Part shown: positions 5,038-39,819 of the stretch, piece after piece
Numbering within the stretch: position 1 is the first letter of the stretch
Layout: every line of letters starts with the position of its first letter
Source: Spirochaetia bacterium
GTDB lineage: Bacteria; Spirochaetota; Leptospiria; Leptospirales; Leptonemataceae
Direction: 5' to 3'
DNA: 64,000 nt
Assembly (NCBI GenBank): GCA_009885105.1
Contig: VFLI01000029.1
Location: 1-64,000, forward strand
Program-made: the position numbers and the translations under genes
The notes under the pieces: model-generated
Databases searched by the model: none
Told to the model about the DNA's origin: nothing
The model's input: only the letters and a program-made list of their open reading frames with translations

Positions 5038-5394
5038 ATGGAAATTCAAGTAATAGAAAAAGAAGGCATTGTTTTTATGTCGATTTCCGGAGAACTTGAT
5101 ATGTACAATGTATCTGTCTTTCGGGAGGAGATCGACAAAATAATCCAGACACATAAATCGCATGCCATTGTCAATCTAAGCAGACTATCGTATATCGACT
5201 CGTCCGGTATCAGCGCCCTTTTCAACGGCATGAGGGCTCTCCAGAACCTGAAGGGCGACCTGCAGCTGATACAGGTGCCGGATTCCATTCATAAAGCCCT
5301 GACCATGATGCGGCTGAGCGGCTATTTTCAGTTTTTCGAAGATGAGAATGAAGCAGTCCTCTATTTCCAGAACGAAAAGAAAAAAAAACCGTGA
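5038..5394 (+). CDS. STAS-domain anti-sigma factor antagonist
   Basis: A 118-residue single STAS domain from MEIQVIEKEGIVFMSISGEL. The phospho-acceptor loop is clear: LSRLSYIDSSGISALF, with DSSG as in SpoIIAA/RsbV proteins, where the serine is phosphorylated by an anti-sigma kinase and dephosphorylated by a SpoIIE/RsbU phosphatase. This makes it a likely partner-switching protein. The window also encodes three PP2C/SpoIIE-type or HATPase proteins that could act on it, though none is adjacent. The start at 5038 is chosen because the STAS fold begins there; a TTG at 4999 would add 13 residues without homology. Confidence 0.85.
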   Translation: MEIQVIEKEGIVFMSISGELDMYNVSVFREEIDKIIQTHKSHAIVNLSRLSYIDSSGISALFNGMRALQNLKGDLQLIQVPDSIHKALTMMRLSGYFQFFEDENEAVLYFQNEKKKKP

Positions 5395-5409
5395 TCGAAT
5401 ATTGTACGG

Positions 5410-7668
5410 CTACCCCGGCTTCATAAATGCATTCAGGATTCGGGCAAGTTCGTCTTTTCGGAAAGGTTTGCAGATGCTTGCCGTAAATCCGTATGCTGCT
5501 GGATTGGCCATGATCGGATCCTCCGCGTAGCCGCTTGCCACAAAAACTGGAACTGCCGTTGATAACTTTCTGATTTCTTTGATCGCCTCTTTCCCGCCCA
5601 TGCCGCCCGGTATTGTCAGATCAAAAATTATACCGGCAATCGCACGTCCGGCCGCCTGTTCCGCATTAAAAAAATCAATGGCCTCCCTGCCGTTTTCATG
5701 GCACACTACATTGTATCCGAAAGTTTTCAGAATTTCGCTCATTATACTGCGTATCACTTCCTGATCGTCCATCACAAGGAAGGTGCCTTTCCCCTGATGC
5801 AGCGCCGAAGGATTCACTGATAATTCGCTCGCTTCATTCGTCGACGCAGGAAGATAGATAAAAAAAGTACTGCCCTCTCCCGGCGCAGATTTAACGTCCA
5901 GATATCCCCCGTGTCTGCGGACGATTGAAAAACATGTTGCCAGACCCAGTCCATGTCCATGTTTTTTGGTTGTGAAAAATGGATCGAAGATGCGCGCCAG
6001 GTTTTCCCTGGGTATGCCGATACCCTGGTCTGTGATAGCAATTTTAATATAGTCGCCCCTGGAAATTGCGGGATGATCCTCCGGTCCCAATGTGATATTT
6101 CGCGCCGTCATATCGATAGAACCGCCGGAAGGCATGGCCTGTTTGGCGTTGATGATTAGATTGTCGACAACCTGCCCGATCTGATTCCTGTCAAATCTGC
6201 AGTCCCAGATATCATCGGCGATATCAAAACGGCACGTCACATTGGAGCCGCTCAAGGCGAACTGAGCCGTCTCCTGAACAAACGGGAACAGTCGTCCGAC
6301 TTTCTGAACCGGCATGCCGCCTTTTGCGAAAGTGAGCAGCTGCCGGGTCAGTGACCTTGCTCTCTCAATCGTGCTCATGGCCGTGGTAAGATAGCTTTTT
6401 ATCTGCGAGTCATTAGACATTTCATTGGCCAGATCGATATAACCAAAAACGCCGCTCATAAGATTGTTGAAATCATGAGCGATGCCCCCGGCCAGGACGC
6501 CCAGTGATTCGAGCTTCTGAACTTTCTGAAGGGCCTCTTCCGTGTGTTTTCTCTCTGTGATATCTTCGAAAATAGTCGCAAAGCGTCCCGGAGTCGGCCG
6601 AAAAGCTCGAACACGAAAAAAACGGCTGTACGGCTCCGAATAGTATTCAAATGACAGAGGTTCGCCGGTAAGCGCCACATGGCCGTATTTTTCAATCTGC
6701 ACAGGACTGGCATTCGGCAGCACTTCAAGTATCGTGCGCCCGATAGTTTCCGAACATTTAAAACCCGTATGCCTTTCGTAAGCGGAGTTGGCGTCCAGAA
6801 TGCGAAAATCGACAGCATTCCCGCTGCTGTCTGTGATGATCTCGTTCAGACTGAAACCTTCTTCCATATTTTCAAACAGAAGCCTGTATTTGCTCTCACT
6901 CTGACGAAGCGCCTCTTCCGCCTGCCGCAGCTCCGTGATGTCCCGCGCCGTTGCGTACGTTACGCCGTCGCTTCTGTTAAAAAAAGCCGTCCAGGACAGC
7001 AGCAGGATTCTGCCGTCTTTGCACATGTATCGATTTTCAAAATTCATCGAAGGACGAACATCCACCTGCAGCTTCATTTCCAGTGCGGTTCGTTCGCGGT
7101 CTTCCGGCGCGACAAAATCAAGAAAAGGTCTGGATATCAATTCGCTCTGAGGGTAGCCCGTCATTTTCACCATCGCTGGATTGATATTTAAAAAGCAGCC
7201 GAATGGATCCGCAATGCACATGGCATCTGTTGAAAGCATGAAAAACTTGAAGTAGCTTTCTCTCTCCCTGTCCAGCCGCTTGAGTTCGGTGATGTCGCTG
7301 AAGGTGACGATAACCTGCTCGATCGTATCGTCTGACGCGAAACTCGGATCGGCGTTGACCAGAACCCAGACATCGTCCTGGGTGCCGGGTCGATGCACGC
7401 CGACAACAAAGTTCCTCAGGGGCGCCCGATTTTTGAGTACCCGGGCAACCGGAAACTCCTCATGAGGCATCATAGATCCATCTTCACGGAAAAAATGCCA
7501 GGCGGGGTCCACGGCCGTCTTGCCCTTCAGCTGATCTTCCGTCAGTCCCAGAAGGATCTCTGCGGCATGGTTGCACATCAATATGGTTGTATCAGCATTG
7601 TGCACTACAACGGCGGCCTGTATCTTCCGAAGCAGGATTCGAGAGGCATCAGCGCTTATACTGTCCAT
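5410..7668 (-). CDS. PAS-PAS-PAS hybrid sensor histidine kinase with receiver domain
   Basis: A 752-residue cytoplasmic protein with no membrane helices. Three PAS domains lie at roughly residues 10-130, 140-255 and 265-380, each ending in a DITELK/DITERK-type linker. A HisKA domain follows with phospho-acceptor His in GGIAHDFNNLMSG, then HATPase_c with N-box NLIINAKQAM and G-boxes DQGIGI and GHGLGLA. A C-terminal receiver domain (about 630-750) has acidic DD near its start and acceptor Asp in IIFDLTIPGGMGG. The HDFNNL class is common in environmental bacteria. It should sense a soluble or redox signal and relay phosphate to its own receiver; no response regulator with an output domain is nearby. 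Confidence 0.9.
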   Translation of the reverse strand: MDSISADASRILLRKIQAAVVVHNADTTILMCNHAAEILLGLTEDQLKGKTAVDPAWHFFREDGSMMPHEEFPVARVLKNRAPLRNFVVGVHRPGTQDDVWVLVNADPSFASDDTIEQVIVTFSDITELKRLDRERESYFKFFMLSTDAMCIADPFGCFLNINPAMVKMTGYPQSELISRPFLDFVAPEDRERTALEMKLQVDVRPSMNFENRYMCKDGRILLLSWTAFFNRSDGVTYATARDITELRQAEEALRQSESKYRLLFENMEEGFSLNEIITDSSGNAVDFRILDANSAYERHTGFKCSETIGRTILEVLPNASPVQIEKYGHVALTGEPLSFEYYSEPYSRFFRVRAFRPTPGRFATIFEDITERKHTEEALQKVQKLESLGVLAGGIAHDFNNLMSGVFGYIDLANEMSNDSQIKSYLTTAMSTIERARSLTRQLLTFAKGGMPVQKVGRLFPFVQETAQFALSGSNVTCRFDIADDIWDCRFDRNQIGQVVDNLIINAKQAMPSGGSIDMTARNITLGPEDHPAISRGDYIKIAITDQGIGIPRENLARIFDPFFTTKKHGHGLGLATCFSIVRRHGGYLDVKSAPGEGSTFFIYLPASTNEASELSVNPSALHQGKGTFLVMDDQEVIRSIMSEILKTFGYNVVCHENGREAIDFFNAEQAAGRAIAGIIFDLTIPGGMGGKEAIKEIRKLSTAVPVFVASGYAEDPIMANPAAYGFTASICKPFRKDELARILNAFMKPG

Positions 7669-7886: not shown

Positions 7887-8246
<360 letters not shown>

Positions 8247-8268
8247 TTTTTTTTGCTGGAAGAAAGAA

Positions 8269-11584: not shown

Positions 11585-12475
11585 ATGAAAAAACTTTGGA
11601 TAATTCCCCTTGTAATGATGACCTTCGGACTACAAGCCGATCGAATCTCTGTCACTTCCGTTTACTGGAATACAATAAAACCGGCTGTTGTGGCCCATCG
11701 AGGCGCGGCAGACCAGGAAGCCCGGACCAACGGCTTTCATGAAGGAACCATAGCCGCTTACCGGTATGCCGCGTCCATCGGCGCGGATGTCCTGGAAATG
11801 GATGTACACAAGACCACAGACAACCGGCTGGCCGTTCATCATGACGACAGGCTGCCGGGTCTTTGCAACGGTCAGGATAAGATCCACAATCTTTCACTGA
11901 CACAATTGAAAGCCTGCAAGGGATCTCTCGGATACGAGATTCCGGAACTGCGCGAAATTCTCCGGACATTCCCAAGATACCGTATGACAATAGAAATGAA
12001 AACTCCGGACAACAGTCTATTCAAAAGCTATTCCGGAATTGAGGCGCTGCTCTGGAGCGAACTGGTTGCTGCGAATATGACCGGTTATGTGAGTGTTTCA
12101 AGCATCAACGGAAGCTGTGTAAAGAATTTTAGAAATATTGTAAAAGGCCTGCCGACCGGATTGAGCGCCGGAGAACAGATCAGTTTTCTTCTCTGCCACA
12201 TGGCACGTCTGCCCCAGTGGGCCTGCGCCGGCGTTCCTCGCGGAGAAAGATTCATGCTGGAAACTCCTTACTTCCATAAAGATTTGACGCTGCTGGGAGT
12301 CAACTTCACGGTCATCAGTCTCGTCACCACTTCGTTTACGAATCGTGCGCACAACTACGACTACCGTGTAAACTACTGGACTGTCAACGCGGCCGCGGAC
12401 ATTCAGCGGGTGTACAGCGTCGGGGCGGACGGCGTCATTTCCGACAATCCGCGTCTGTCCATGAGTCTGCGCTGA
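11585..12475 (+). CDS. Secreted glycerophosphodiester phosphodiesterase
   Basis: A 296-residue GDPD-family enzyme that hydrolyses glycerophosphodiesters to glycerol-3-phosphate and an alcohol. Motifs: VVAHRGAADQEARTN with catalytic His-Arg, GADVLEMDVHKTTDN with metal-binding E and D, and AVHHDDRL. The C-terminal NYWTVNAAADIQRVYSVGADGVISDNP is the typical barrel end. The start is the ATG at 11585 with GGGAGAG 5 nt upstream; it gives a signal peptide (MKKLWIIPLVMMTFGLQA). The enzyme is therefore likely periplasmic and may recover glycerophosphate from lipids. It is followed after 8 nt by the next gene. Confidence 0.88.
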   Translation: MKKLWIIPLVMMTFGLQADRISVTSVYWNTIKPAVVAHRGAADQEARTNGFHEGTIAAYRYAASIGADVLEMDVHKTTDNRLAVHHDDRLPGLCNGQDKIHNLSLTQLKACKGSLGYEIPELREILRTFPRYRMTIEMKTPDNSLFKSYSGIEALLWSELVAANMTGYVSVSSINGSCVKNFRNIVKGLPTGLSAGEQISFLLCHMARLPQWACAGVPRGERFMLETPYFHKDLTLLGVNFTVISLVTTSFTNRAHNYDYRVNYWTVNAAADIQRVYSVGADGVISDNPRLSMSLR

Positions 12476-12483
12476 TCATCAGA

Positions 12484-13038
12484 ATGCAGACCCGGACAAA
12501 AAAAAGATTATCGATATCTCTAATTATCGGGGCGGCGGTTATTGCAACCGCCGTTTTTTTCATTCTGCGCTCGTCGGACCTCAGAATTTTATCCCGCGAG
12601 TCCGATTCGGAATCCATAAGCGAGCAGGATCTTCCCGCGGATTTTGAAGAGGAATCTCAATCAGACCTCGACGATCCGAGTCTGACCCCGGCGGAAAGAG
12701 AAGAACGCCTGGCTCAAATTAAAAGAATGCACAAAGATCTTCCCGGAAATATTTTTCTCCCCCCTCTGTCCACCTCCGAAGGAGAGAAGGCGCTGGCGGA
12801 AAGAAATATTCTCCTTAAAAAAATGCGCGAGCTGGAAATAAAAATCACAAAGCATGAGGAAAACGACCAGGAAAAGGCAGAATTCATACGCCTTAAATCC
12901 AGATATCTGGACGATAAGATCGCCATGCTTCAGTATCTTGCAATCAAGGATCCTTCAGGAAAAATTCCAGAGCATATTCAGGAAATGATCGAGGAAATGC
13001 GAAGCGAGAAAAAATCCCTCGAAAAAGAATCGCGCTGA
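12484..13038 (+). CDS. Single-pass membrane protein with coiled coil, unknown function
   Basis: A 184-residue protein with a short basic N-terminus, one membrane helix (SLIIGAAVIATAVFFILRS, residues about 11-29), an acidic spacer and a long charged helical region (about residues 85-180) with a coiled-coil look (LKKMRELEIKITKHEEN, MIEEMRSEKKSLEKES). The helix probably anchors a periplasmic coiled coil. It lies 8 nt after the GDPD gene and 26 nt before the transglutaminase-like gene, suggesting one operon. No family recognised. Confidence 0.6.
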   Translation: MQTRTKKRLSISLIIGAAVIATAVFFILRSSDLRILSRESDSESISEQDLPADFEEESQSDLDDPSLTPAEREERLAQIKRMHKDLPGNIFLPPLSTSEGEKALAERNILLKKMRELEIKITKHEENDQEKAEFIRLKSRYLDDKIAMLQYLAIKDPSGKIPEHIQEMIEEMRSEKKSLEKESR

Positions 13039-17688: not shown

Positions 17689-17754
17689 TATTCGGCCGGA
17701 ACTCAGGCCTGTCATTGGAGGCATTATTGTGGTTGATTTTTTTTCCAGATTCAT

Positions 17755-17987
17755 AAATACTGGTTTCATCTCCTGGGAGGAAGTCGGGTGAAATTCCCGC
17801 GCTGACCCGCAACTGTGTGTGCGATTATTTTCGCATGAGCCAGAGCTTCCCGCGAATCAACGCTTCGAGGTTTGAGCGCTTCGCTGTAACTCGCCTTTCG
17901 CAATCGTGCGACGAGGGGCCCCAGAGATACCAGGGGCTCATGTTCATTTGAAGATCTGCCCCTGAATATTTGCTCAGGAGGCAATAG
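17755..17987 (+). promoter_or_regulatory. Cobalamin riboswitch (leader of the two lipoprotein genes)
   Basis: The aptamer core is evident: GGGAGGAAGTCGGGTGAAAT then CCCGCGCTGACCCGCAACTGTG (17775-17817) follows the GGGAA..GGTGAAAATCC..GACCCGCAACTGT consensus, and GAGCCAGAGCTTCCCGC (17837-17853) is the B12-box element. The expression platform can be drawn: AGGGGC (17932-17937) can pair with GCCCC (17918-17922) or with GCCCCT (17958-17963); the latter overlaps CCTGA (17961-17965), which otherwise pairs with TCAGG (17974-17978) and hides the AGGAGG Shine-Dalgarno (17976-17981). This predicts control of translation of the lipoprotein at 17988: free RNA on, B12-bound RNA off. Confidence 0.88.
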
Positions 17988-18530
17988 ATGAAAAAAATAT
18001 TAAATATGTCCGCAGTCATACTGCTCTGCGGTGTTATGTCGGCCTGCCCTTTCTTAAGCTCGGGAACGACTGAGGGTCCCAGTCAGGCAAGCCTTGCTGC
18101 CTTTGCGCTGGCAGCGGTGGAACAGAGCAATTCAACCGTGCCGGTTCAGGGAACCTGGAGCTGCACGGAATCGAGTTTTGGTACCGTCAGCACTTTTCGC
18201 ATCACGCAGAACACCGTCACATATGTAGACACGTTCACTCCGGAGCCGGGCCTGTCTGTCAATATCCGGCTGGTTCAGAGTCCATTCAACCGTCTCTACT
18301 ATCAGAATCCTTCAACAGGCAGCAATCCAAATAAATATTTTCGCTTCCTCTGGGTCTTTCCCAGCACGGCCAGCGGAGGGAAAACCGGTCTGTGCTACGA
18401 TGGTTTCTGTCCGGCCGGCTGTTCTGATAGTCTTGCAGGAATGATGGCGATCACTTCGCCGTCCAATCCGCTGAACCTCACATCCGGTTGCAACGGTTAC
18501 GCCTGGAATCTCTGCACGCGTACCAATTGA
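17988..18530 (+). CDS. B12-riboswitch-controlled lipoprotein (unknown family)
   Basis: A 180-residue lipoprotein. The signal ends at a lipobox (VMSAC, Cys21), then a Ser/Thr-rich linker. The mature part has several cysteines (CTESS, GLCYDGFCPAGCSDS, SGCNGYAWNLC) that could form disulfides. It starts 7 nt after a strong AGGAGG that is part of the riboswitch expression platform. Because the riboswitch would shut it off when cobalamin is plentiful, a role in corrinoid capture or transport at the cell surface is likely. No family was recognised. Confidence 0.75.
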   Translation: MKKILNMSAVILLCGVMSACPFLSSGTTEGPSQASLAAFALAAVEQSNSTVPVQGTWSCTESSFGTVSTFRITQNTVTYVDTFTPEPGLSVNIRLVQSPFNRLYYQNPSTGSNPNKYFRFLWVFPSTASGGKTGLCYDGFCPAGCSDSLAGMMAITSPSNPLNLTSGCNGYAWNLCTRTN

Positions 18531-18546
18531 AGGAAGCCGCTCCTCA

Positions 18547-19419
18547 ATGAAAATACAGATCATTTTATTTTCGTTGCTTTCAATCACAATCCAGTGCGGC
18601 CTTTTTTTGCCCGCACAAAAAACAGATCCAAACGCGCTGGCGGCGCTCCTGCTTCTGCAGCCCGGAAGCTCATTTCTATCCCGTCCCTGCGCGCCGTATA
18701 CCGCATCTTCGCCGACAGGAATATATGCGGCCGATACTGTCGTTTCAGCGCCTGGCTCCACAGGCTACGGATACGATGATTCCTACTGCGCCGTAAACGG
18801 AGTGCGCGGGCTGGGTCTTGACAACGGATCCATCGATGTGTATACAATGCCTGCGACTGGAAGCTCCGCGTACATGACGCTGCGCTGGGCCGGCAAACGA
18901 ATTGTAAACGGAAGCGGCGATGACTTTATCGTGTATGAAAATCCATTTCAGGTTTCCGGGAGCAGCTCCAATATTTTTCTGGAAGCTCTCATCGTTGAAG
19001 TGAGCGCGGACAATGCCGTCTGGTGCGGATTCGGTCCAAACTATACTTTCGCGCCGGAAACCACATTCAGTTCCAATCCCGCAAACTGGTTGAATTTTGC
19101 CGGACTCAAACCGGCGCTCTACCATCAGGAATTGAATTTTCTGAATGCCGCAAATACTTTCACGCCGTCTCAGGGCGGAGGGGATTTTTTCGATCTGGCC
19201 AACATCGTAACGGATGCAGGCTGCACGGCGGGAATCGCAAACAATATCAAGGACACAAATTCGCTCAACGCGGCGCGCGGATTCCTGTATCTTCGTCTGA
19301 CTGCCGCAACCGCGCGAACCAATGCCGATTCAGGTCAGCCCTTTCCACAGAATTCCAATGCGGCCGGCGGAGGACCTGATATTGACGGAGTTATGGCCCG
19401 TTATTCGGCGGTCGAATAG
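18547..19419 (+). CDS. Cell-surface lipoprotein of B12-uptake type
   Basis: A 290-residue lipoprotein with a lipobox-like ITIQC. The body resembles surface proteins encoded in B12 (btuB) loci of other phyla: GLGLDNGSIDVYTMP, then YMTLRWAGKRIVNGSGDDFIVYENPFQ, an all-beta domain with the N-G-x-G-x-D-F-x-V-x-E-N pattern, followed by EALIVEVSADNAVWC. It lies 16 nt after the first lipoprotein and should share the riboswitch mRNA. The link to corrinoid capture comes from the riboswitch and this family likeness; binding has not been shown. Confidence 0.72.
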   Translation: MKIQIILFSLLSITIQCGLFLPAQKTDPNALAALLLLQPGSSFLSRPCAPYTASSPTGIYAADTVVSAPGSTGYGYDDSYCAVNGVRGLGLDNGSIDVYTMPATGSSAYMTLRWAGKRIVNGSGDDFIVYENPFQVSGSSSNIFLEALIVEVSADNAVWCGFGPNYTFAPETTFSSNPANWLNFAGLKPALYHQELNFLNAANTFTPSQGGGDFFDLANIVTDAGCTAGIANNIKDTNSLNAARGFLYLRLTAATARTNADSGQPFPQNSNAAGGGPDIDGVMARYSAVE

Positions 19420-21069: not shown

Positions 21070-23456
21070 ATGCTGACCCAGAAAGAAAAGAAGGCCCTGA
21101 GTGAGCGGGATATTTGCACGAAATTCATCACTCCAGCCCTGGATGAAGCCGGATGGAGTATTGACACACAAATCCGTGAGGAAGTGACGTTTACAGAGGG
21201 CCGGATTATTCTCAGGGGCAAACTGACTTCGCGCGGCCAGAAAAGCGCGCGGATTATATCCTCTACCTGAAGCCGAATATACCTCTGGCCATTATCGAGG
21301 CAAAGGACAACAAGCAGCCGATCGGCGGCGGCATGCAGCAAGCCCTTGAATATGGAATGATGCTCGATATTCCATTTATTTACAGCTCAAATGGTGATGG
21401 TTTCATTGAACATGATCGCACCGGTATGAGCAAATCAATCGAACGTGAGCTTGCTCTGGATGAGTTTCCATCGCCCCAGAATCTCTGGGAAAGATACAGC
21501 AAATGGAAGGGATTTACAGAGCAACAGTCAAAAATTGCTACGCAGGAATATTTCGTCGATCCGAGTGGTAAGGAGCCCCGTTATTACCAGCGCATAGCAA
21601 TCAACCGGGTTATGGAAACCGTTGCACAGGGCCAGAATCGTGTCCTGCTTGTCATGGCGACGGGTGTCGGAAAAACCTATGTGGCATTTCAAATCATCTG
21701 GCGTTTGTGGAAGGCAGGAGTAAAGAAGCGTATCCTCTTTCTGGCAGACAGGAATATTCTGGTCGATCAGGCGAAGACTAATGACTTCAAGCCATTTGAG
21801 TCGGTGATGACAAAATTCAACAGGGCCAAATTCGATAAGTCATACGAAGTCTACCTCGCTCTCTATCAATCGCTTACAGGACCCGAGGAAAGTCAGAAGG
21901 CGTATAAGGAATTCTCGCGCGACTTCTTCGACATGATCGTAATAGATGAATGTCATCGCGGAAGCGCAGCGGAGGACAGCGCATGGAGAGAAATACTTGA
22001 ATACTTCACAGGAGCGACACAGATCGGACTGACCGCCACACCGAAAGAAACAAAGTATGTTTCGAATATCCATTACTTCGGAGAACCGGTCTATCAGTAC
22101 ACACTGCGCCAGGGGATTCAGGACGGATTTCTGGCTCCCTATCGTGTGGTTCGTATAGACATCGATCGTGATCTTGCCGGATGGCGGCCTGAGAAAGGCC
22201 AGAAAGACAAGCATGGAAACCTGATTGAGGATCGTGTATATGACCAGAAGGACTTTGATAAAAACCTTGTCATCGATGAACGAACGGAATTGGTGGCCCG
22301 TAAAGTGACCGAATTCTTGCAGGGCACGGACCCGATGAGCAAGACCATCGTCTTTTGCGAAGACATCGACCATGCAGAACGAATGCGCCGGGCGTTGATC
22401 AATGAAAATTATGAACTGTATCAGAAAAACAATAAGTATGTTGTGCGCATCACCGGCGACAGTGAGGAGAGATATGCCGGACTGGATGATTTTATCACAG
22501 CGTCTTCGCGCTATCCTGTGATCGCCACGACATCAAAGCTTCTGACTACCGGAGTTGATGTAACCACCTGCAAGCTGATCGTGCTGGACAGTACTATCAA
22601 TTCCATGACTGAGTTCAAACAGATTATCGGTCGCGGCACACGGGTGAATGAGGATTACGGCAAGACTCATTTCTCGATTATGGATTTCAAGAAAGCCACG
22701 GAACTGTTTGCCGATCCGGATTTCGATGGCGATCCAGTACAAGTCTATGAGCCTGGAGAAAATGGGAATCCCGTTCCTCCCGATATCGAGGAAAGTCTGG
22801 ACGACGAAGAGACAGAAGGGATTCCGGATGGTATCAACATATCCCAACCATTCCCGGAGTCCGAAGAAATGCCGGATGGCAAGCATATCCCCCGCCTGAA
22901 GCACTATGTCAATGGCGTTGAAGTGCGCATTGTTGGCGAGCGAGTGCAGTACTACGATGCTCACGGAAAGCTCATCACGGAATCGCTCAAAGATTATACA
23001 ATAAAAACTATAAAAAAAGAATACCGATCGCTTGGCGATTTTCTGAAGAAATGGGCCGGTTCAGACCGAAAGCAGGCCATTATTGAGGAACTGAGGGAAC
23101 AGGGAATATTCTTTGAGGCTCTGGCCGATGAGGTTGGTCGGGAATATGAACCGTTCGATCTGATTGCTCACGTGGCCTTTGGGCAGCCGCCGTTGACCCG
23201 GAAAGAACGGGCCGAAAATGTTCGCAAACGCAACTACTTTGGCAAGTACGGCGATTCGGCGCGGATGGTCATGGATGCGCTATTGCAAAAGTACGCGGAT
23301 CGGGGAATCGAAGACATTGAAGAAATGGATGTTCTGAAGCTCAAACCCATCAGCGACATTGGAACGCCAGTTGAAATTATACAGAGTTTCGGCGGGAAAG
23401 AGAAATATATCACTGCGATCAAGGAACTCGAATCGCTTCTGTATGAAAGCGCGTAG
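21070..23456 (+). pseudogene. hsdR: Type I restriction enzyme R subunit, interrupted by a 1-nt frameshift
   Basis: The motor-nuclease subunit of a type I R-M enzyme. The first segment (21070 to about 21240, MLTQKEKKALSERDICTKFITPALDEAGW) runs into a stop, and the homologous protein continues in the -1 frame. The break is at the A-run 21241-21244: with five A instead of four the reading would be [18 protein letters not shown], the expected family sequence. The nuclease motif [11 protein letters not shown], Walker A MATGVGKT (about 21656), DECHRG and GLTATP all lie in the downstream frame and are intact. It is either a recent inactivation, a slippage switch, or a sequence error. The total would be about 795 residues. 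Confidence 0.88.
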
Positions 23457-23465
23457 GAAAGCATC

Positions 23466-24905
23466 ATGAATATCAGCACAACCATCAAATCGATCCAGGA
23501 TATTATGCGCAAAGATGTGGGCGTGGACGGAGACGCCCAGCGGATCGGGCAGATCGTCTGGATGCTCTTCCTGAAGATATTCGATGATCTGGAAAAAGAA
23601 AAAGAAATCATGGATGATTCGTATAAATCGCCCATTCCAAAAAAAATGCGCTGGGCGAACTGGGCCGGTGATGATGAAGGGATCACGGGCGATACTCTGA
23701 TGAGTTTCGTGAATAACGAACTGTTTCCAAAACTAAAAGAGCTTCCAGGCAGCGCGGCGAACCCGCGCGGGCTCATTATTCGCTCCGTATTTTCTGATGC
23801 CTACAATTACATGAAATCCGGCACGCTCATGCGGCAGGTAATAAATAAAGTAAACGAAGTCGATTTTAATAAAAAGGCCGATCGTCATCTCTTTGGCGAT
23901 ATTTACGAGAAAATCCTCAAAGACCTGCAGAGCGCGGGAAACGCCGGGGAATACTACACGCCGCGCGCCGTAACGCAGTTCATGACGCAGATGATCGATC
24001 CGCAGCTGAAAGAAAAGATGCTCGATCCTGCCTGCGGCACCGGAGGGTTTCTTGTCAGCGTGATCGAGCATGTCCGGGCCCATTACGTCAAGACAAACAC
24101 CGACAGGGAAAAATTGCAGAAGATGGTTAAGGGCATCGAAAAAAAGCCACTGCCGCATCTTCTGTGTGTGACAAACATGATTCTGCACGGTATTGAGGTT
24201 CCCACGCAGGTGCTCCGCGACAATACGCTCACCCGTCCGCTCCGCGACTACGGCCCGTCAGACCAGGTCGATGTGATCCTGACAAATCCGCCGTTTGGAG
24301 GTATGGAAGAAGACGGAATCGAAAACAACTTCCCTACTGCTTTTCGCACGCGAGAAACGGCCGATCTGTTTCTCATCCTGATCATGACGCTGCTCAAAGA
24401 CGGCGGACGCGGGGCCATCGTTCTGCCGGACGGCACTCTTTTTGGCGAAGGCGTTAAAACCAAGATCAAGGAGAAACTTCTGGAAGAATGCAATCTGCAT
24501 ACAATCGTACGGCTTCCCAACGGCGTGTTTGCTCCGTACACCGGCATAAAGACCAACCTTCTGTTCTTCACAAAAGGCGAACCGACAAAAGAAATCTGGT
24601 ACTACGAACACCCGTATCCGGAAGGCGTGAAATCGTACAATAAGACCAAACCGATGGTTATCGAAGAATTTGAACCGGAGAAAAAATGGTGGAACAAGAG
24701 AAAAGAAACTGACCGGGCCTGGAAAGTGACGGCGGTGCAGATCAAGGCCAACAACTTCAATCTCGACATAAAGAACCCGCATGTAAAGGATGAAGGACCC
24801 AGCGATCCGGAAGAAATCCTGCGTCAGTTTCAGGCGCTGTCAGCCGAAATTGCCGCCAAACGTGAACAGTTGAAGAACGAGCTTGTTACGGCATTGGAAC
24901 GATGA
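23466..24905 (+). CDS. hsdM: Type I restriction-modification DNA methyltransferase subunit M
   Basis: A 479-residue N6-adenine methyltransferase. The N-terminal helical HsdM_N domain (about 1-140) is followed by the catalytic domain with the SAM motif LDPACGTGGFLVSV (about residues 186-199) and catalytic NPPFGG (about 273-278). ATG at 23466 lies 9 nt after the hsdR stop. It modifies host sites together with HsdS, and also forms the core of the restriction complex. The gene is intact, so methylation should persist even if hsdR is dead. Confidence 0.95.
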   Translation: MNISTTIKSIQDIMRKDVGVDGDAQRIGQIVWMLFLKIFDDLEKEKEIMDDSYKSPIPKKMRWANWAGDDEGITGDTLMSFVNNELFPKLKELPGSAANPRGLIIRSVFSDAYNYMKSGTLMRQVINKVNEVDFNKKADRHLFGDIYEKILKDLQSAGNAGEYYTPRAVTQFMTQMIDPQLKEKMLDPACGTGGFLVSVIEHVRAHYVKTNTDREKLQKMVKGIEKKPLPHLLCVTNMILHGIEVPTQVLRDNTLTRPLRDYGPSDQVDVILTNPPFGGMEEDGIENNFPTAFRTRETADLFLILIMTLLKDGGRGAIVLPDGTLFGEGVKTKIKEKLLEECNLHTIVRLPNGVFAPYTGIKTNLLFFTKGEPTKEIWYYEHPYPEGVKSYNKTKPMVIEEFEPEKKWWNKRKETDRAWKVTAVQIKANNFNLDIKNPHVKDEGPSDPEEILRQFQALSAEIAAKREQLKNELVTALER

Positions 24906-24949
24906 AAAACTGGTGGACTAAAAAGCGGTTTTGAAACAAGGATATATTT

Positions 24950-25165
24950 ATGAAAGCTGAGCGATCCATAATTGAAAATCTGCCCGAGACTATCGTCACT
25001 CCGCCGGAGATGCGGGGGCGCAAGGTTGAGGTTCTATACGTTGATCTGGAAGATGCACAGAGAAACAAGGCTCAGGCTCATCAAAAGCTCCCTTACTATG
25101 GGTCTATTGAACTTACGATTGATCCAATGGAATATCAGCGTTCCGTCCGCGGTGAGTGGGATTGA
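24950..25165 (+). CDS. Small antitoxin-like protein (71 aa)
   Basis: A 71-residue protein, MKAERSIIENLPETIVTPPE then MRGRKVEVLYVDLEDAQRNK. The pattern LPE...P.E.RG.KVEV is like the short N-terminal part of many small antitoxins (VapB/DUF2281-type), but no family can be named with certainty. It starts 44 nt after hsdM and ends 73 nt before the nucleotidyltransferase. It may form a unit with that gene, or it may be a stray addition to the hsd operon. Confidence 0.5.
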   Translation: MKAERSIIENLPETIVTPPEMRGRKVEVLYVDLEDAQRNKAQAHQKLPYYGSIELTIDPMEYQRSVRGEWD

Positions 25166-25238
25166 AAACCCGCGTCGCGGAATTGCAAGTTATTGCGTTG
25201 GAACTATTGTGAAATTCAAATCAGGAATTGGCGGCACT

Positions 25239-25550
25239 GTGAATGAACGCGAAACAATCCGATCGATCCTTGACGAAGTCTACGGAGCAGACATTTCCCA
25301 GGTGATCCTGTTTGGCTCCCGGGCTGGTGGGGATTTTCACAATGAAAGCGATTTTGATGTAATGGTGGTGCTCATCAGACCCCTGCCCCGGCCTGAATAT
25401 CTGGCTCTTGTAAAGGACGCAAGGATGCGCTTGGCCCGGGCAAGAATCAGCGCAGACTTACTCGTTCGGACGCAGGATGAAATTGATTTTTATCGAAACG
25501 TTCCGGGAACCGTTTCTTACCATGCTCTTCTGGAAGGCGTCGCAATATGA
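25239..25550 (+). CDS. MNT-type minimal nucleotidyltransferase
   Basis: About 103 residues from GTG 25239 (VNERETIRSILDEVYG); GTG 25209 is an alternative. The nucleotidyltransferase signature is complete: VILFGSRAGGDFHNESDFDVMVVL, with GS...D.D metal-binding residues. In toxin-antitoxin pairs these enzymes AMPylate and silence a HEPN RNase encoded next door. Here the expected ATG of a partner overlaps the stop (ATATGA at 25547) but that frame ends after 12 codons, so the HEPN gene seems lost. Function alone is unclear. Confidence 0.8.
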   Translation: MNERETIRSILDEVYGADISQVILFGSRAGGDFHNESDFDVMVVLIRPLPRPEYLALVKDARMRLARARISADLLVRTQDEIDFYRNVPGTVSYHALLEGVAI

Positions 25551-25653
25551 CTGAGCTGCCGGATACTAAAGATCAGTCGCAATGAATATACCTGGTATTG
25601 AATCCGGCCGGGTAATTCTTCAAATTGTCACAGGGATGTGTTACTCTTAAAGT

Positions 25654-26565
25654 ATGGGCAAAAGCAAAGGACAGAAATTCGGCGGTGACTGGACGAACGT
25701 AAAGCTTGAGGTGATTGCTAAGTACCTAAGAGCTTACACAACTGCGTTGAAGAACTCGCCAACCCCGGAAACGCCATTCCATAAGATCTACATTGATGCT
25801 TTTGCCGGAACCGGCTATCGTGATGCCCGGCGGGATGATGCATCTAAGGATCAGCAGAATCTGATCTTCCCTGACATCGCAGAGCCGGGGCCACAGGCCT
25901 TACTGGAGGGCTCGGCCCGAATGGCTTTGCAGATCAAACCGCTCTTTGATGAATATATTTTTATCGAACAAAAAGCAGCAAGTTGTGTTCACCTTGAAGA
26001 ATTGAAGATTGAATTTCCGCACCTGGCTGATGCCATCAGTGTTCAACAAGGTGATGCCAATATCGAGATTCAGAGCCTATGCGTCGCTCGCTCGTGGAAA
26101 ATGGATAGAGCTGTGCTGTTCCTCGATCCTTTTGGAATGCAGGTGGACTGGAGGACAATTGAATCGATCGCCGAAACGAAGGCGATCGACCTGTGGTTGC
26201 TCTTCCCCCTCGGCATAGGGGTGAACCGCCTGTTAACGCGTTCGGGTGACATACCTGATCCCTGGCGCAAACGTCTATCTGCGTTTCTTGGTACGGATGA
26301 TTGGTATGACGAGTTTTATAAAGTAGAAGCCGGCAGCGACACTCTTTTCCCGCAGGAACGTATCATCAAAGCTTCAATGGATGTTATAGGGCGCTACTTC
26401 AACAATCGTTTGAAAACTATCTTCGAAGGCGTTGCCGAAACACCGGGCGTCCTGCGCAATTCTGCGAACAATCCGTTATATCTTTTGTGTTTTGCGGTCG
26501 GCAATAAGAATGGACGGCCCATTGCCTTAAATATCGCCGAGCACCTGCTGAAGGCGGTGCGCTGA
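25654..26565 (+). CDS. tcmP: Three-Cys-motif partner protein TcmP
   Basis: A 303-residue protein of the TcmP family (TIGR04474 as I recall it). The N-terminal pattern [17 protein letters not shown], then [16 protein letters not shown], is the family start; the second motif resembles SAM-binding motif I of Rossmann methyltransferases, and [13 protein letters not shown] fits the D-P-F/Y catalytic-type loop. Families of this type are found next to a small protein with a three-cysteine motif, which is exactly the next gene. Its stop shares one base with the start of that gene (26565). Reaction unknown; methyl transfer is a guess from motif I. Confidence 0.85.
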
Positions 26566-27302
26566 TGGCCAAAGGGACCGGCATAGAATGGACGGAGTCA
26601 ACGTGGAATCCTGTCACTGGTTGCACGAAGATCAGCGCAGGTTGCAAGTACTGCTATGCCGAGCGAATGGCGGAGAGATTGCAGGCGATGCGTCAACCAA
26701 ATTACGCGAATGGATTTCAACTCACACTCCAGCCGCATATGCTGGATCTTCCTCTGCGATGGAAGAAGCCGCAAACTATCTTTGTCAATTCTATGAGCGA
26801 TCTTTTTCATAATGATGTGCCTCTGTCTTACATCCGTCGTGTCTTTGATGTCATGGAGCAGGCTTCCTGGCACCACTTCCAGGTTTTGACAAAAAGGGCC
26901 GGTCGCCTCGCGCAGCTTGCTTCCAGTCTGAATTGGGCGGACAATATCTGGATGGGAGTCAGTGTCGAGAACGATCGACAGCGAAATAGGATTGATGATT
27001 TGCGCAAGACGGAAGCCCGTATCCGATTTCTTTCCCTTGAACCGCTGATCGGGCCGCTTCACGATTTGAACCTTGAGGGAATTGATTGGGTGATCGTTGG
27101 CGGCGAATCCGGTCCGTCGGCCCGGCCAGTCGAAATCGAGTGGATTCAGGACATTCGCGATCAGTGTCTGAAGACAAGAGTGCCGTTCTTCTTCAAGCAA
27201 TGGGGCGGTAGGAACAAGACGAAAGCAGGAAGATTGCTCGATGGACGCACATGGGAGGAAATGCCTGCATTCACGGGCGACAGGAGACTCGCCGCCGTAT
27301 GA
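26565..27302 (+). CDS. Three-Cys-motif Gp37/Gp68 (DUF5131) protein
   Basis: A 245-residue protein of the phage Gp37/Gp68 family (PF07505). The opening [19 protein letters not shown] leads to the three-Cys motif C-x6-C-x2-C (Cys20, Cys27, Cys30; [15 protein letters not shown]), like a radical-SAM-type or Fe-S cluster site. Later family motifs are [43 protein letters not shown] and [13 protein letters not shown]. It is the partner of TcmP, with a 1-nt overlap upstream, and overlaps hsdS by 4 nt (ATGA). Members are common in phages and mobile islands; the reaction is unknown. Confidence 0.88.
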
Positions 27303-28912
27303 TCCAAAAAATCCTCAATGAACAGTTCGATACGCTTCTCGATGCGCCGGAATCAATCCCGAAGATGCGGGAAATGATTCTACAGCTGGCGGTGATGGGG
27401 AAGCTGGTGCCGCAAGATCCGAATGATGAACCGGCGAGTGAGTTGCTATTTCGGGCTGGAATTTCTGCCTCTAATGGAAAACCTACGGAATCCATGCAAC
27501 CAGGTTGGATGTGTATTACGCTGGAACCATTGATCCAACTTGTTTCTGGGCAACACATCCTCCATACAGACTACAACGACCATGGCGTAGGAATCCCCTA
27601 CCTCACAGGACCCGCTGATTTTGGGGATAGGTTTCCAATCGTCACGAAATGGACGGAGAGGCCGAAGGCTGTAGCCGTTGCGGATGACGTGCTGGTCACG
27701 GTTAAAGGCGCAGGATTGGGCAAATTAAACATTGTAAATGTTCAAACGCTGGCCATTAGTCGGCAACTGATGGCGGTTCGCAGTCAATTTCTGGAGAAGA
27801 TGTTCCTTTTTTATTTACTGAAATCCCATTACAATCACTTCCAAGCATCTGGCGTCGGCATCGCTATACCGGGTCTATCCCGGAGTGATTTGCTGGAATT
27901 GGACGTGCGCCTCCCGCCCCTGGCCGAGCAAAAACGCATCGTCGAGAAAGTCGATCGGCTTATGGCCTTTCTGGACGAACTGGAGGCCCGACAAAAAGAG
28001 CGCGATCGCGTTCAGGTGGCTTTCAGCGGGGCAGCTCTTTCCAAACTCACCGAGGTTCAGGAGCCGCCGCAGTTTGCGATCAACCTGAACCGTGTGAAGG
28101 GCCATTTTGATTTGATCGTGAAGACGCCGGCTGATGTGAAGAAAGTGCGCGAGACGATTCTCCAGCTGGCGGTGATGGGGAAGCTGGTGCCGCAAGATGC
28201 GAATGATGAGCCCGCTAGTGAATTGCTGAAGAGGATTGCGAAGGAGAAGGAGACGCTGATTGCGGAGGGGAAGATCAAGAGGCCGAAGGAATTGCCGCCG
28301 GTGGGGGATGAGGAGAAGCCGTTTGCGCTGCCGCCGGGATGGGAGTGGGTGAGGTTCGACTTCATAGCTGATATCGAAACGAATCTCATTGCCCCAGTGG
28401 GTAAATACAGACTCTTCCCACATATCGCCCCAAATCATATTGAAAAAGATACAGGTAAACTTCTGGAATATAGTACTGTAGCTGATGATGACGTGCGCAG
28501 TGGAAAGCACTTGTTCCAGGCTGGTAGAATTCTCTATTCAAAAATTCGACCCAACTTGAACAAAGTTGTAATAGTAGATTTTCCCGGCCTTTGCAGTGCA
28601 GACATGTATCCAGTCTTTACGCGGATTGTCCCGAAGTTTCTTCATCGCTTAATGCTTTCAAATATATTCTTATCTCAAGTAGTGCGCGAAGACAACAGAA
28701 TTGCGATGCCAAAAGTAAATCAGGAACAATTGTCAGTCGTGCAACTCCCCCTCCCGCCCCTGGCCGAACAAAAGCGCATTGTGGAGAAAGTTGATCGGCT
28801 TATGACGCTCTGCGATGAACTGGAAGCGAAACTTACAAAATCACGCGAAGAGGGAGCGCGTCTGCTGGAGGCGGTTGTAAGCAGGATTGCGGGAGGTGTT
28901 AGCCAACTTTGA
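27299..28912 (+). CDS. hsdS: Type I restriction-modification specificity subunit S
   Basis: A 537-residue specificity subunit with two target-recognition domains. ATG 27299 overlaps the stop of the three-Cys gene (ATGA). The order is: conserved N-terminal arm ([17 protein letters not shown]), TRD1, conserved helix ([18 protein letters not shown]), a second copy of the arm ([17 protein letters not shown]), TRD2, and a second copy of the helix near the C-terminus. The two halves are direct repeats at DNA level, so TRDs could be exchanged. TRD2 is AT-richer than TRD1. With HsdM it sets the bipartite target site, which cannot be read from sequence. Confidence 0.93.
27383..27446 (+). repeat. hsdS arm repeat, copy 1
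   Basis: Direct repeat of the segment at 28163-28226; the first 36 nt (27383-27418) are identical, with a few third-position changes after. It encodes [13 protein letters not shown] and the following residues of the first conserved arm. Confidence 0.9.
27911..27986 (+). repeat. hsdS helix repeat, copy 1
   Basis: Direct repeat of 28751-28826; it encodes [18 protein letters not shown], the long helix that spaces the two TRDs. The DNA copies differ at scattered synonymous positions. Confidence 0.88.
28163..28226 (+). repeat. hsdS arm repeat, copy 2
   Basis: Second copy of the 27383-27446 segment, 780 nt downstream and in the same frame and orientation. Confidence 0.9.
28751..28826 (+). repeat. 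hsdS helix repeat, copy 2
   Basis: Second copy of the 27911-27986 segment, 840 nt downstream. Together with the arm repeats it makes the whole gene an internal tandem duplication with divergent TRDs. Confidence 0.88.
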
Positions 28913-34254: not shown

Positions 34255-35409
34255 CTAAGGCAGATAGAGCAATTCAAACGGCCGCAGTCCCACATTTATC
34301 GGCTGCGATGTCAGACGGATATCGTCGCGAGAAGTATCGTAGATCATAACACCGGGGCTGGAGAAACTTGCGTCGCCGGCATACAGCCGCCCGTCGGGTG
34401 TGAGAAGCAGTCCTGCCACCGTTCCAGCATTGGATGGGAATCGAGCGATCACTGAAAGTAACCGCCCCGTTGACGGATCAAAACGATGCAGATATTTATT
34501 GAATGCCGCGTCCAGCACAAGCGCGTATCCGGTCGTGTCGTTTTTTATTTCCACATCCAGAATATCGCCGCCTGCTGCGGTCTCTGCGTACAGAAAGCCG
34601 GGACGGAACATCCGAGTGGCGAGATTGAAAGCTTCGACTCCGCCGTCAAGGGCGCTCAAGAAACCCATTCGATTCGGACAGGCGACAACAATATGCGGCT
34701 GTCCGTCTATGATAGCTCTCTTCAATTTGCTGAAGGGATTGCGGCTCTGAAACTGGAAAACACCCGTGACGGCATCGGACGCCGTGCTGATTTCAACAAG
34801 ATAGGAGGGGCTGTTGGGCGGAAGTTTTCCCGAGGCGTCGTTTCTGTCCAATCTCTGCAGGGCTACGTAAAGAGAAGCGCCTTCTATCAGCATGCTGTCC
34901 ATCTCCGGCAGATTGTCCGCGATTCCGGAAGTAGAATATGTGTCCGCATACGGTGCAAGCGAAATCGAACCGGTGGCGATGCCGGCTGCGGGATTGACGA
35001 TAAGAAGATTCGCACGGTTGTAGAGCGTGATGTATGCTTTGTTTTCGCTGGCTTTGATAAAATCATGAGGATTGGTGCCGGCGCCTGTAGAAAATTCCAG
35101 AGTTGTCAGGAATCCCAGCGCAGGCTGCAGGACCTGAATATTATCCCGATTCAGCCGGTTGATTGTATAAACAAGTCCGTCCTGATACCGGGCTGAAGCA
35201 TCTGAGTGTACGGAGGGCGAACCAGGCAGAGCGAATCCCTCCGGATTCAGCACGGCAAACCTGCCCAGCGATCCAAAATCTGTCGTAACGACTCCGATAC
35301 TTCCATGCGATCCGCCGGCGAACAAAGTGAAAATCGAAGGCTGCTGAATATCACGGCAGCCCAGAACCAGCGCAAGAAAGACGGCAGACAACATTCGAAT
35401 ATGATTCAC
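34255..35409 (-). CDS. YncE-like beta-propeller lipoprotein
   Basis: A 384-residue lipoprotein with a lipobox ALVLGC (Cys18 from the GTG at 35409; ATG 35394 is an alternative). The mature part has repeated blades of the YVTN/YncE type: GRFAVLNPEG, GAGTNPHDFIKASENKAYITLYNRANLLIVNPAAG, TSYLVEISTASDAVTG-like segments, GYALVLDAAFNKYLHRFDPSTGRLLSV. Such propellers bind corrinoids in some surface systems (BtuG), and a TonB receptor is two genes upstream on the same strand, but a B12 role is not proven; no riboswitch lies in front. The start overlaps the SpoIIE-TPR stop (GTGA). Confidence 0.75.
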   Translation of the reverse strand: MNHIRMLSAVFLALVLGCRDIQQPSIFTLFAGGSHGSIGVVTTDFGSLGRFAVLNPEGFALPGSPSVHSDASARYQDGLVYTINRLNRDNIQVLQPALGFLTTLEFSTGAGTNPHDFIKASENKAYITLYNRANLLIVNPAAGIATGSISLAPYADTYSTSGIADNLPEMDSMLIEGASLYVALQRLDRNDASGKLPPNSPSYLVEISTASDAVTGVFQFQSRNPFSKLKRAIIDGQPHIVVACPNRMGFLSALDGGVEAFNLATRMFRPGFLYAETAAGGDILDVEIKNDTTGYALVLDAAFNKYLHRFDPSTGRLLSVIARFPSNAGTVAGLLLTPDGRLYAGDASFSSPGVMIYDTSRDDIRLTSQPINVGLRPFELLYLP

Positions 35410-37643
35410 AGAGGCAGCTTCTCCAGAATTTTTTTAGCACGGCTGTTTTCCGGTTCAATAGTCTGAACTTCCGCAATCATCGAGCGACTTCTATTCTGGT
35501 TGCCCTTTACGAGATACATTTCCGCCAGATTAACGAGATTCTTGACAAGCGAAGGCTCTCTTAGCCGGACACGCTCTGCCGAGTCGATCGCCCGATCATA
35601 ACGCCGGGCTTTTTTCAAGCAGTGCGACGCCACAAACATCATTTCCGTATCCGCCGGATGCAGCTCGCTGAATTTCTCAGCAAACTCAGCCGCTTTCTCG
35701 TAATTATCAATATTTATGTAAAGTTTCACCAGCAGCCGCAGGACAGCGGTGTCTTCCGGGTGATATCCGTGTATTTCTTCAAGTTTGCGCAGAGCCTCTT
35801 CCCGTCTGCCTCTGTGCCAGTCCTGGCGGGCCTCATTGATGTCCTGTGTTTCATTGATAAATTCGGATTGCGGCTCATTTTCGTGGAAGCCGATGCGAAG
35901 CAGTGAAAAATCATCCGTAAGCTCGCCTTTTTCATGGATGACCTCCTCAATACGCGTCAGCTGGCCGGCGCCGTCATTGACAACGGACAAGAAAAGCTGC
36001 TCATTTTCATTGATTTCTCTTTCGCCGTCCTTTCTGGCCATATTTAAATCATCTCGACCGTCTGAACCGGCGATGATTACATCGCCAGGTTTCATCTGAA
36101 AGGTGCGCACATAAATCCCTCCGTCCAGCCCCTGTGTGCCGAGTTTGTGAAACATGTATTCTGCATCGATAAACGACGCCTGATTCTGCCGGAAAAGAAC
36201 CATCGGCGGGTGTTCCGCATTCATGAAGTATACCAGGCCGGTTTCATCCTCGACCATGCCGAGCACCATGGAAACGAGCATCGTCCCGTCGAAACTTTCG
36301 AACACTTTTTGAAGTTCCACAAATGAATTTTTCATCCATCTTTCCGGATACTGATCCGCAGTCTGGGCCGTGAGCCGGGTCCTTTCAATAATCGATTGAA
36401 ATACAGCGCCGAGAACCAGCGCCCCGCCTGCGCCCTGAATGGATTTCCCCATCGCATCCGCGTTTAAGAAAACCGTGTACGGCCGTTTCTTCAGAGAAAT
36501 ACTGTGAGCGATGCAGATATCGCCGCCGATTTCCTCTTTCCAGACGCGGAATTCGAAACGCTTTTTCTGCCGGATTAAAAAATCTACCGTGACAGGATTA
36601 CCTCTGGTTGTGTTTGCCGCCAGAGGTTTGAGCAGCAGCGAAGTAAGAAAATAGTCTCCGTCCTGCTGCGTCTTCAATTCCTGTACTTTCCCGAGAGTCT
36701 GAGCCAGTTCTTCCGTCCGCACCTGAACTTTATGCTCCAGATTTTCATTCAGACTGGTAATCTGTTCGTACATTGCGCGGAGTTTTTCCGTAATGATAGA
36801 GAGAAGATATGACTGGTCCCCGAAATCATCCGCCGATGTGCGAAGACTGGTCACATCGAACAGTCCGTTCCCCAGATTTGTCAGCGCATTGTTGGATACG
36901 GACAATCCGCCTTTGACGGCCCTTGCCACAACAAACGATGCCACCACAAGCGCTGCGAAAACAAGAAACACCATGATGCCGATATGAACCAGCGGATGCG
37001 AAAGAGTGATAATACCATTGTTGGTAGCGTACAGAAAATATCCCATCAGGGTGAAGGGCATAACCGTCACTGCCAGAATCGTGGCCAGCAGCCTTCTGAA
37101 ATATCCAAAACGCCGCACCATATGCGCGGGCGGCGAACTGTTTCGCAGAGCCTCCGACTGCAGAAGGGGACGGACGTTGTCCTCCGTGATGAAAAGATAC
37201 ACGATGGCGGAAATGGGAATTGTAATGAACAAAAGATATGGAATTGTCATGTGCGCCTGTGGCTGCAGCTGGAAATTCTTGGCCATTACAAAGCCCAGGT
37301 GAGCGAGAGGAACACCCAGGGCCCATCGAAGGATGATTAATTTCACCTCAAAATACGGATAGTGGAGAAGCAAGAGAGAGGCCCGAGCAGGATTGGGGAG
37401 TTGGCAGCCGGGACCGGGAATATTCTTAAAAATGCTTTTCACTTTGATAATTCGGAATACAAGGGCAACTCCGATAACAACAACGGCGGCCACGGTTCCC
37501 ATGCCAAGGGCGAGCAGAGTATCATCGATATTCTTAAAACCGGAAGCCACGGCTGAAAAATATATGCCGATCGGCACGGGAATCAGATGTGTGAACAACT
37601 CCAGCTTCAGGGTGAGCTTGAGAATAAATTTGTTGGGTTTCAT
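35406..37643 (-). CDS. Membrane SpoIIE/PP2C phosphatase with HAMP-like and TPR regions
   Basis: A 745-residue protein. Six or so membrane helices occupy residues 15-265, then a coiled coil (LNENLEHKVQVRTEELAQTL), then a PP2C/SpoIIE-type phosphatase domain (about 345-575): GGDICIAHSI, FLNADAMGKSIQGAG, NAEHPPMVLF, DVIIAGSDGRDD, LTDDFSLLRI. The usual GDVSGHG loop is changed to ADAMGKS but keeps the Asp. Tetratricopeptide repeats finish the protein (about 600-745). It probably dephosphorylates STAS-type antagonists in response to a membrane signal. It is coupled by 4 nt to the propeller lipoprotein. Confidence 0.82.
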   Translation of the reverse strand: MKPNKFILKLTLKLELFTHLIPVPIGIYFSAVASGFKNIDDTLLALGMGTVAAVVVIGVALVFRIIKVKSIFKNIPGPGCQLPNPARASLLLLHYPYFEVKLIILRWALGVPLAHLGFVMAKNFQLQPQAHMTIPYLLFITIPISAIVYLFITEDNVRPLLQSEALRNSSPPAHMVRRFGYFRRLLATILAVTVMPFTLMGYFLYATNNGIITLSHPLVHIGIMVFLVFAALVVASFVVARAVKGGLSVSNNALTNLGNGLFDVTSLRTSADDFGDQSYLLSIITEKLRAMYEQITSLNENLEHKVQVRTEELAQTLGKVQELKTQQDGDYFLTSLLLKPLAANTTRGNPVTVDFLIRQKKRFEFRVWKEEIGGDICIAHSISLKKRPYTVFLNADAMGKSIQGAGGALVLGAVFQSIIERTRLTAQTADQYPERWMKNSFVELQKVFESFDGTMLVSMVLGMVEDETGLVYFMNAEHPPMVLFRQNQASFIDAEYMFHKLGTQGLDGGIYVRTFQMKPGDVIIAGSDGRDDLNMARKDGEREINENEQLFLSVVNDGAGQLTRIEEVIHEKGELTDDFSLLRIGFHENEPQSEFINETQDINEARQDWHRGRREEALRKLEEIHGYHPEDTAVLRLLVKLYINIDNYEKAAEFAEKFSELHPADTEMMFVASHCLKKARRYDRAIDSAERVRLREPSLVKNLVNLAEMYLVKGNQNRSRSMIAEVQTIEPENSRAKKILEKLPL

Positions 37644-37769
37644 ATTTCTTGCGATTGCTGGTTTCCTGTAGCCTGGAAGTGCGCTAAGTTTTCCCTCACC
37701 CTTTATTCATACAATAAGTTTTCAAGACCGGATACCGTAAGCTGTGATGGATCAATTCTATACAATTAC

Positions 37770-39794: not shown

Positions 39795-39819
39795 AACCCA
39801 GGAAAACAGAAGACTTATT

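Follow-up and report, generated by a model that had tools for sequence, protein, structure and literature searches.

In a 64-kb stretch of spirochaete DNA, hereafter the window, we found a cobalamin riboswitch aptamer upstream of two tandem lipoprotein genes whose role is very probably corrinoid acquisition. We consider it likely that the element is a translational riboswitch that would respond to adenosylcobalamin by repressing an outer-membrane corrinoid-capture operon. The second lipoprotein belongs to the LIC_13355 family, so far described as a Leptospira adhesin and probably a vitamin B12 catcher. Most descriptions of surface B12 capture by lipoproteins concern gut Bacteroides or DUF4465 proteins; if our reading is true, spirochaetes and Myxococcota join them with a protein family of their own, and a directly testable function can be assigned to two families that databases list without a role.

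A cobalamin riboswitch and the lipoprotein pair behind it

The features of the locus are as follows.

17754-17890, + strand: cobalamin (AdoCbl-type) riboswitch aptamer (RF01482, below the gathering score; 104.4 bits with model R1; covariation in 35 relatives)
17916-17939, + strand: hairpin A, part of the expression platform and able to form in the OFF state (computed fold, -13.5 kcal/mol)
17931-17964, + strand: hairpin B, putative anti-sequestor of the ON state, ribosome site free (computed fold, -17.6 kcal/mol, z -3.75)
17957-17983, + strand: hairpin C, putative sequestor of AGGAGG (computed fold, -13.7 kcal/mol, z -2.60)
17988-18530, + strand: first lipoprotein, 180 aa, divergent member of the LIC13354 family (43.2 bits to the relatives' profile; alignment A2)
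18547-19419, + strand: second lipoprotein, 290 aa, LIC_13355 family (NF033170, 247.1 bits)
18907-18942, + strand: NGSGDDFIVYEN motif in the second lipoprotein (five residues invariant in 48 sequences)

The B12 aptamer that the initial annotation had read upstream of the lipoproteins was confirmed with RF01482, the AdoCbl family (17752-17881, + strand, 41.7 bits, E 2.6e-6), and with R1, a covariance model built from 35 related leaders (alignment A6), the window's own leader included, for which the aptamer was the sole match in the 64 kb. A default Rfam scan of the window did not report the aptamer because it scores under both Rfam cut-offs (gathering score of 50 for RF01482; 24.3 bits vs a cut-off of 31.5 for RF00174, E 5e-4 across the whole 3.6-Mb genome), and lower thresholds were therefore applied. 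The aptamer core and the stem order are like those of RF01482, whereas the outer stems and the 3' hairpin region diverge; the aptamers of this clade have simply drifted from the Rfam models. Across the 35 relatives, 97.1% of the cells in three core helices retained pairing. Double changes occurred in 25 cells vs 6.5 in shuffles, and the covariation score was reached by 0 of 500 shuffles. With regard to membership in the AdoCbl riboswitch class (RF01482, clan CL00101), the element thus falls below the gathering threshold while having the conserved core and covarying helices across relatives, and we regard it as almost certainly genuine. The sub-threshold Rfam scores could also be those of a degenerate relic that has lost its switching, but this is extremely improbable given the clade-wide conservation and covariation, the 104-bit score with R1, and the intact alternative hairpins. 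Elsewhere in the source genome (3.6 Mb, 78% complete), a second riboswitch candidate (C103, 17.3 bits) was supported neither by cmscan at E 0.5 nor by R1 (L162), and was therefore taken as a chance match.

The ribosome-binding site AGGAGG (17976-17981) lies 6 nt ahead of the ATG at 17988, and five of its six bases are paired in hairpin C. In the computed folds, hairpins A and C are compatible and hairpin B is incompatible with either, which agrees with the competing stems proposed earlier to mask this site. The layout fits a translational OFF switch whose ON form is hairpin B: at low adenosylcobalamin this hairpin would form, leaving AGGAGG free so that both lipoproteins would be made, and once the coenzyme is bound by the aptamer, hairpins A and C would be favoured and AGGAGG hidden. 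Among 25 relatives' leaders, pairing of the ribosome site had a median of 0.80 vs 0.60 in controls (p = 0.08, not significant), and a general tendency of these leaders to pair the site is only suggestive. Exact 5-mer complements just upstream were enriched (8/25 leaders vs 6/94 control genes, p = 0.0017), with 3/25 vs 2/94 for exact 6-mers (p = 0.06); a bulge in its stem keeps the window leader out of both counts.

The two genes are separated by 16 nt, and each encodes a short signal peptide followed by a Cys, so that the tandem lipoproteins and the motif first noted in the second one were both recovered. Within this motif, residues G124, D126, V129, E131, and N132 are invariant across 48 sequences; as a guess based on residue spacing relative to BtuH Asn399, D126, E131, and N132 might line a phosphate or calcium site. 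The second protein is a full member of the LIC_13355 family (NF033170) of Leptospira, at 247.1 bits vs a curated cut-off of 120. The first, a distant relative of the LIC13354 family (NF047669) of Leptospira, had no database family match above cut-off and did not reach the cut-off of 130 for NF047669, a model matched at E 0.01 or better by 10 of the 23 members of alignment A2, the window protein not among them. It was nevertheless the sole match among 296 window ORFs to a LIC13354 profile made from its relatives. Since these same-place relatives match LIC13354, the window pair is most likely the counterpart of LIC13354-LIC13355. Hence, of the proposal that these are new corrinoid-binding surface proteins, the novelty does not stand, as both families are already in databases (NF033170, NF047669), while the corrinoid-binding reading gains support from the evidence below.

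The immediate neighbours of the pair are a PMT_2 membrane protein upstream and CinA downstream. The earlier statement that no btuB is adjacent therefore holds for immediate neighbours, but it overlooked BtuB-like and BtuG-like genes 15-20 kb away.

37770-39845, - strand: BtuB-like TonB-dependent receptor (808 bits to alignment A4; Plug domain)
34255-35409, - strand: BtuG-like propeller lipoprotein (504 bits to alignment A5)

The ten best PDB matches of the receptor profile are all BtuB or BtuB-type receptors. For the propeller lipoprotein no Pfam family was found, and its best PDB matches are YncE-type or surface-layer chains, including a BtuB partner chain, all weak (E 0.008-0.01); we call it BtuG-like on the basis of these matches and of synteny. 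On the - strand, the propeller lipoprotein, a SpoIIE-TPR gene, and the receptor stand in a row (34255-39845), the SpoIIE-TPR gene splitting the receptor set. No riboswitch was detected near these genes by Rfam at E 10 or by R1 unfiltered (best 3.2 bits). In the assembled part of the genome, the riboswitch would therefore control the capture lipoproteins but leave the transporter outside its control, and to this extent the proposal that it serves lipoproteins instead of a transporter is borne out; another riboswitch could lie in the missing part. CobT was likewise not found in this genome, at 78% completeness.

Riboswitch and B12 gene associations across genomes

Next, we evaluated the association between the riboswitch and the LIC_13355 family in related genomes, which were found by name and are mostly Leptospiraceae or Leptospirales MAGs. 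LIC_13355 was present in 26 of 30 genomes of the order, and 24 of these 26 carry a same-strand aptamer upstream of it. The two exceptions are G027, which has no upstream riboswitch, and G020, whose contig ends within the gene; G004 has its aptamer 3.3 kb upstream, beyond intervening receptor and propeller genes. G027 and G023 carry a LIC13354-like gene under a riboswitch, apart from LIC_13355, and the two families therefore follow the riboswitch independently. As a held-out check, we examined six class-level LIC_13355 loci, drawn from 11 matching class-level genomes and none used in building R1, and all six had a riboswitch (35-54 bits by R1).

The gene content around the pair also points to B12. 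In some genomes of the order, genes for a DUF4430 lipoprotein (8 members) and for a membrane protein of the DUF6580 family (13 members) come after the pair, while in others it lies near a TonB receptor and a propeller lipoprotein, or near CobT/CobS/CobC, CobT being within a few kb of LIC_13355 in G006, G011, G018, and G019. A BtuB-like receptor shares an operon with LIC_13355 in G004, G013, G014, and G023, and seven genomes (G005, G006, G008, G017, G018, G019, and G024) have a second riboswitch directly ahead of a BtuB-like gene. We also observed back-to-back divergent riboswitches in L033 (~5271-6207) and L039 (~12112-12502), one for a LIC13354-type gene and the other for a BtuB-like receptor. 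The DUF4430 lipoproteins (e.g., L041:9012-9452, - strand, and relatives) may be bacterial relatives of the transcobalamin C-terminal domain, DUF4430 being that domain according to one passage of PMC4350170. The DUF6580 protein of the same operons (L041:8436-8990, - strand, and relatives) is a candidate inner-membrane component of corrinoid transport.

Outside the order, 37 of 59 LIC_13355 loci had a same-strand cobalamin riboswitch no more than 4 kb upstream. This count combines 33 of 42 loci by Rfam at the gathering score and 4 of 13 by R1, the other 4 loci being without a direct scan. Several of the 59 contigs start close to the gene, and misses there are therefore no evidence of absence. 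These loci are mostly from Myxococcota and other Deltaproteobacteria, with some from CSSED10-310, Sumerlaeota, and others. They remain from an initial 80 after 21 were dropped, i.e., L101 as incomplete and 20 as repeats of order genomes (L063-L074, L077, L086, L091, L097, L105, L106, L109, and L114); L080, L083, and L115 seem to be the same sites as L057, L061, and L062, with equal R1 scores. Three further loci are not among the 37: in L076 the riboswitch is 6 kb upstream, in L118 its distance slightly exceeds 4 kb, and in L119 it is on the opposite strand. Riboswitches previously assigned to L098 and L103 from contig coordinates, when the count stood at 32/49, were refuted by direct scans.

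Within 3 kb on either strand, the 59 loci included a BtuB-like receptor in 25 cases, a propeller lipoprotein in 15, and LIC13354 in 21, with some of these matches on the opposite strand (e.g., L087, L092, L119). Receptor matches were confined to this range, with 26 within 3 kb (371 kb scanned) and none farther away (476 kb). Orthologues elsewhere are thus found beside btuB-like genes, and the counts of riboswitches in the order (24/26) and outside it (37/59) run clearly against the possibility, raised with the initial annotation, that orthologues are never associated with B12 riboswitches or genes.

Predicted fold and proposed role in corrinoid capture

The AlphaFold2 model of the second lipoprotein was good (pLDDT 85.9). 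Among 985 chains aligned to it, the top two were both from B12-related lipoproteins of Bacteroides thetaiotaomicron: BtuG1 residues 388-660 (Z 12.4, rmsd 3.8, 176 aligned) and BtuH2 residues 316-592 (Z 12.1, rmsd 3.5, 163 aligned), followed by PAPP-A (Z 10.5) and CBM32-type domains (9.3 or below). According to passages of PMC10404256 and PMC8941943, the aligned part of BtuG1, a G-H fusion (PMC10404256), is its C-terminal H-domain, and that of BtuH2 is its C-terminal domain, the one with B12 bound in the crystal structure. Residues ~51-286 of the second lipoprotein are thus predicted to form a BtuH-like B12-binding domain, and our best guess is that the protein works like an H-domain. This fold match supports corrinoid binding independently of gene context, at the level of a model: the C-terminal H-domain fold of the BtuH family is seen on the predicted structure only (Z 12.1-12.4), identity over the match is 14%, the best Foldseek hit reached only E 2.5e-3 (probability 0.93), and jelly-rolls are common, as illustrated by the CBM32 and PAPP-A matches at Z 8-10.5.

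The comparison with Bacteroides extends beyond the fold. The H-domain of BtuH and BtuG1 (PDB 7biz, 8blw) likewise belongs to a riboswitch-controlled lipoprotein encoded beside BtuB and BtuG, and the predicted LIC_13355 fold is alike over ~230 residues. The operon shared with BtuB, a trait of the BtuH family, was found in relatives of the window; in the window itself the BtuB-like gene is 18 kb away. Unlike BtuH, the LIC_13355 family occurs in different phyla and has its own motif (NGxGxDFxVxEN), and in Leptospirae it is a small stand-alone lipoprotein paired with LIC13354. Profile searches of PDB sequences detected no sequence similarity to BtuH or BtuG1. B12-binding jelly-roll lipoproteins of the DUF4465 (BtuJ) type, as described in PMC13398666, are riboswitch-controlled and near TonB receptors and propellers, and a HI-loop tyrosine motif is quoted for them there; Pfam DUF4465 had no match on LIC_13355 at E 1.

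Domain arrangements provide a further parallel. The H-domain stands behind a propeller in BtuG1, as does the LIC_13355 domain in L104 and probably L079; in L140 the LIC_13355 domain stands behind an Ig-like domain, as the H-domain of BtuH2 does behind PKD domains. In L104 (8831-10654), the propeller fused to the LIC_13355 domain has an SGL match above the Pfam cut-off and follows the same G-H order as BtuG1; the fusion in L079 (19-1626) is probable, its propeller matches being weak only. On a contig titled as a Thermoplasmata archaeon MAG (L140:5170-9087), a propeller gene, an Ig-LIC_13355 gene, and a DUF4430 gene are consecutive.

Taken together, these observations suggest that the second lipoprotein would bind corrinoids at the cell surface via a jelly-roll like the H-domain of BtuH and BtuG1, and that the corrinoids would then be handed to a BtuB-like receptor with a BtuG-like lid, whose genes lie elsewhere (in the window, at a distance of 15-20 kb). 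The first lipoprotein would probably contribute to this capture step as a second component. Direct B12 binding of this kind is likely for the second protein; for the first, the case is weaker and the chances are even. The model of the first lipoprotein was poor (pLDDT 65) and matched generic small barrels only (Z 8.2 and below), and its matches to avidin-like and designed barrels were left uninterpreted because of the low model confidence. More broadly, and with moderate confidence, we propose that LIC_13355 and LIC13354 form the core of an unrecognised corrinoid-capture module across spirochaetes, Myxococcota, and other phyla, in which the domain of LIC_13355 would be either a look-alike or a very remote sister of the Bacteroides H-domain, with BtuB-like, BtuG-like, and DUF4430 (transcobalamin-like) partners.

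Alternatively, the lipoproteins may be B12-regulated without binding corrinoids, and may serve the BtuB-like receptor as structural partners, as lids, or as helpers in its assembly. Operon and fold evidence is indeed no proof of binding, Bacteroides BtuL and BtuK2, which come from such operons, bound no cobalamin according to a passage of PMC12751083, and the first lipoprotein offers a poor model with generic matches only. We consider this alternative unlikely, however, as no other solved chain listed matches the second protein's fold as well as a B12-binding domain does.

The LIC_13355 family in the literature and other features of the window

In print, the two Leptospira proteins are known as a lipoprotein or exoprotein without known function, or as an adhesin (LIC_13355, in PMC11891782). 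A lipoprotein pair was already listed in the Leptospira cobII cluster in 2016 (PMC4758666), as LA_4202/LA_4203, which we infer to be LIC13354/LIC13355 from the lipoprotein-lipoprotein-cobT order and from PMC8055020, where the LIC_13355 gene is two locus tags from CobT. This listing is the only B12 link of the two proteins in the open literature searched, in which we found no paper connecting LIC_13355 with B12 binding. Known Leptospira cobalamin riboswitches precede btuB and the cob operon, according to PMC3493377 and PMC3953431, and a passage of PMC7567364 counts three such riboswitches without naming their targets there.

A 2024 study treats LIC_13355 as an adhesin, and the words cobalamin, B12, and riboswitch are absent from it (PMC11891782). 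It reports that the refolded recombinant protein binds laminin, plasminogen, and endothelial cells, and the LIC13355 transcript was 3.7-fold up in rat-implanted chambers (PMC3953431), so that LIC_13355 proteins might be host-matrix adhesins for which B12, via the riboswitch, is a signal of the host environment. Yet the recombinant protein was insoluble before refolding (PMC11891782), and the family is widespread in environmental genomes of Myxococcota and relatives, where riboswitch and receptor neighbours are the same; this makes the explanation highly improbable. If LIC_13355 is instead a vitamin receptor, the earlier adhesin binding data need rereading, and Leptospira would take up surface B12 through a receptor that has been investigated as an adhesin.

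Beyond the B12-related genes, the window contains type I restriction-modification-like genes (21070-28912, + strand), named from their reading frames, the first of which seems interrupted near 21270, and a bacterial RNase P RNA of class A (7890-8247, + strand), detected by the Rfam scan at 262 bits.
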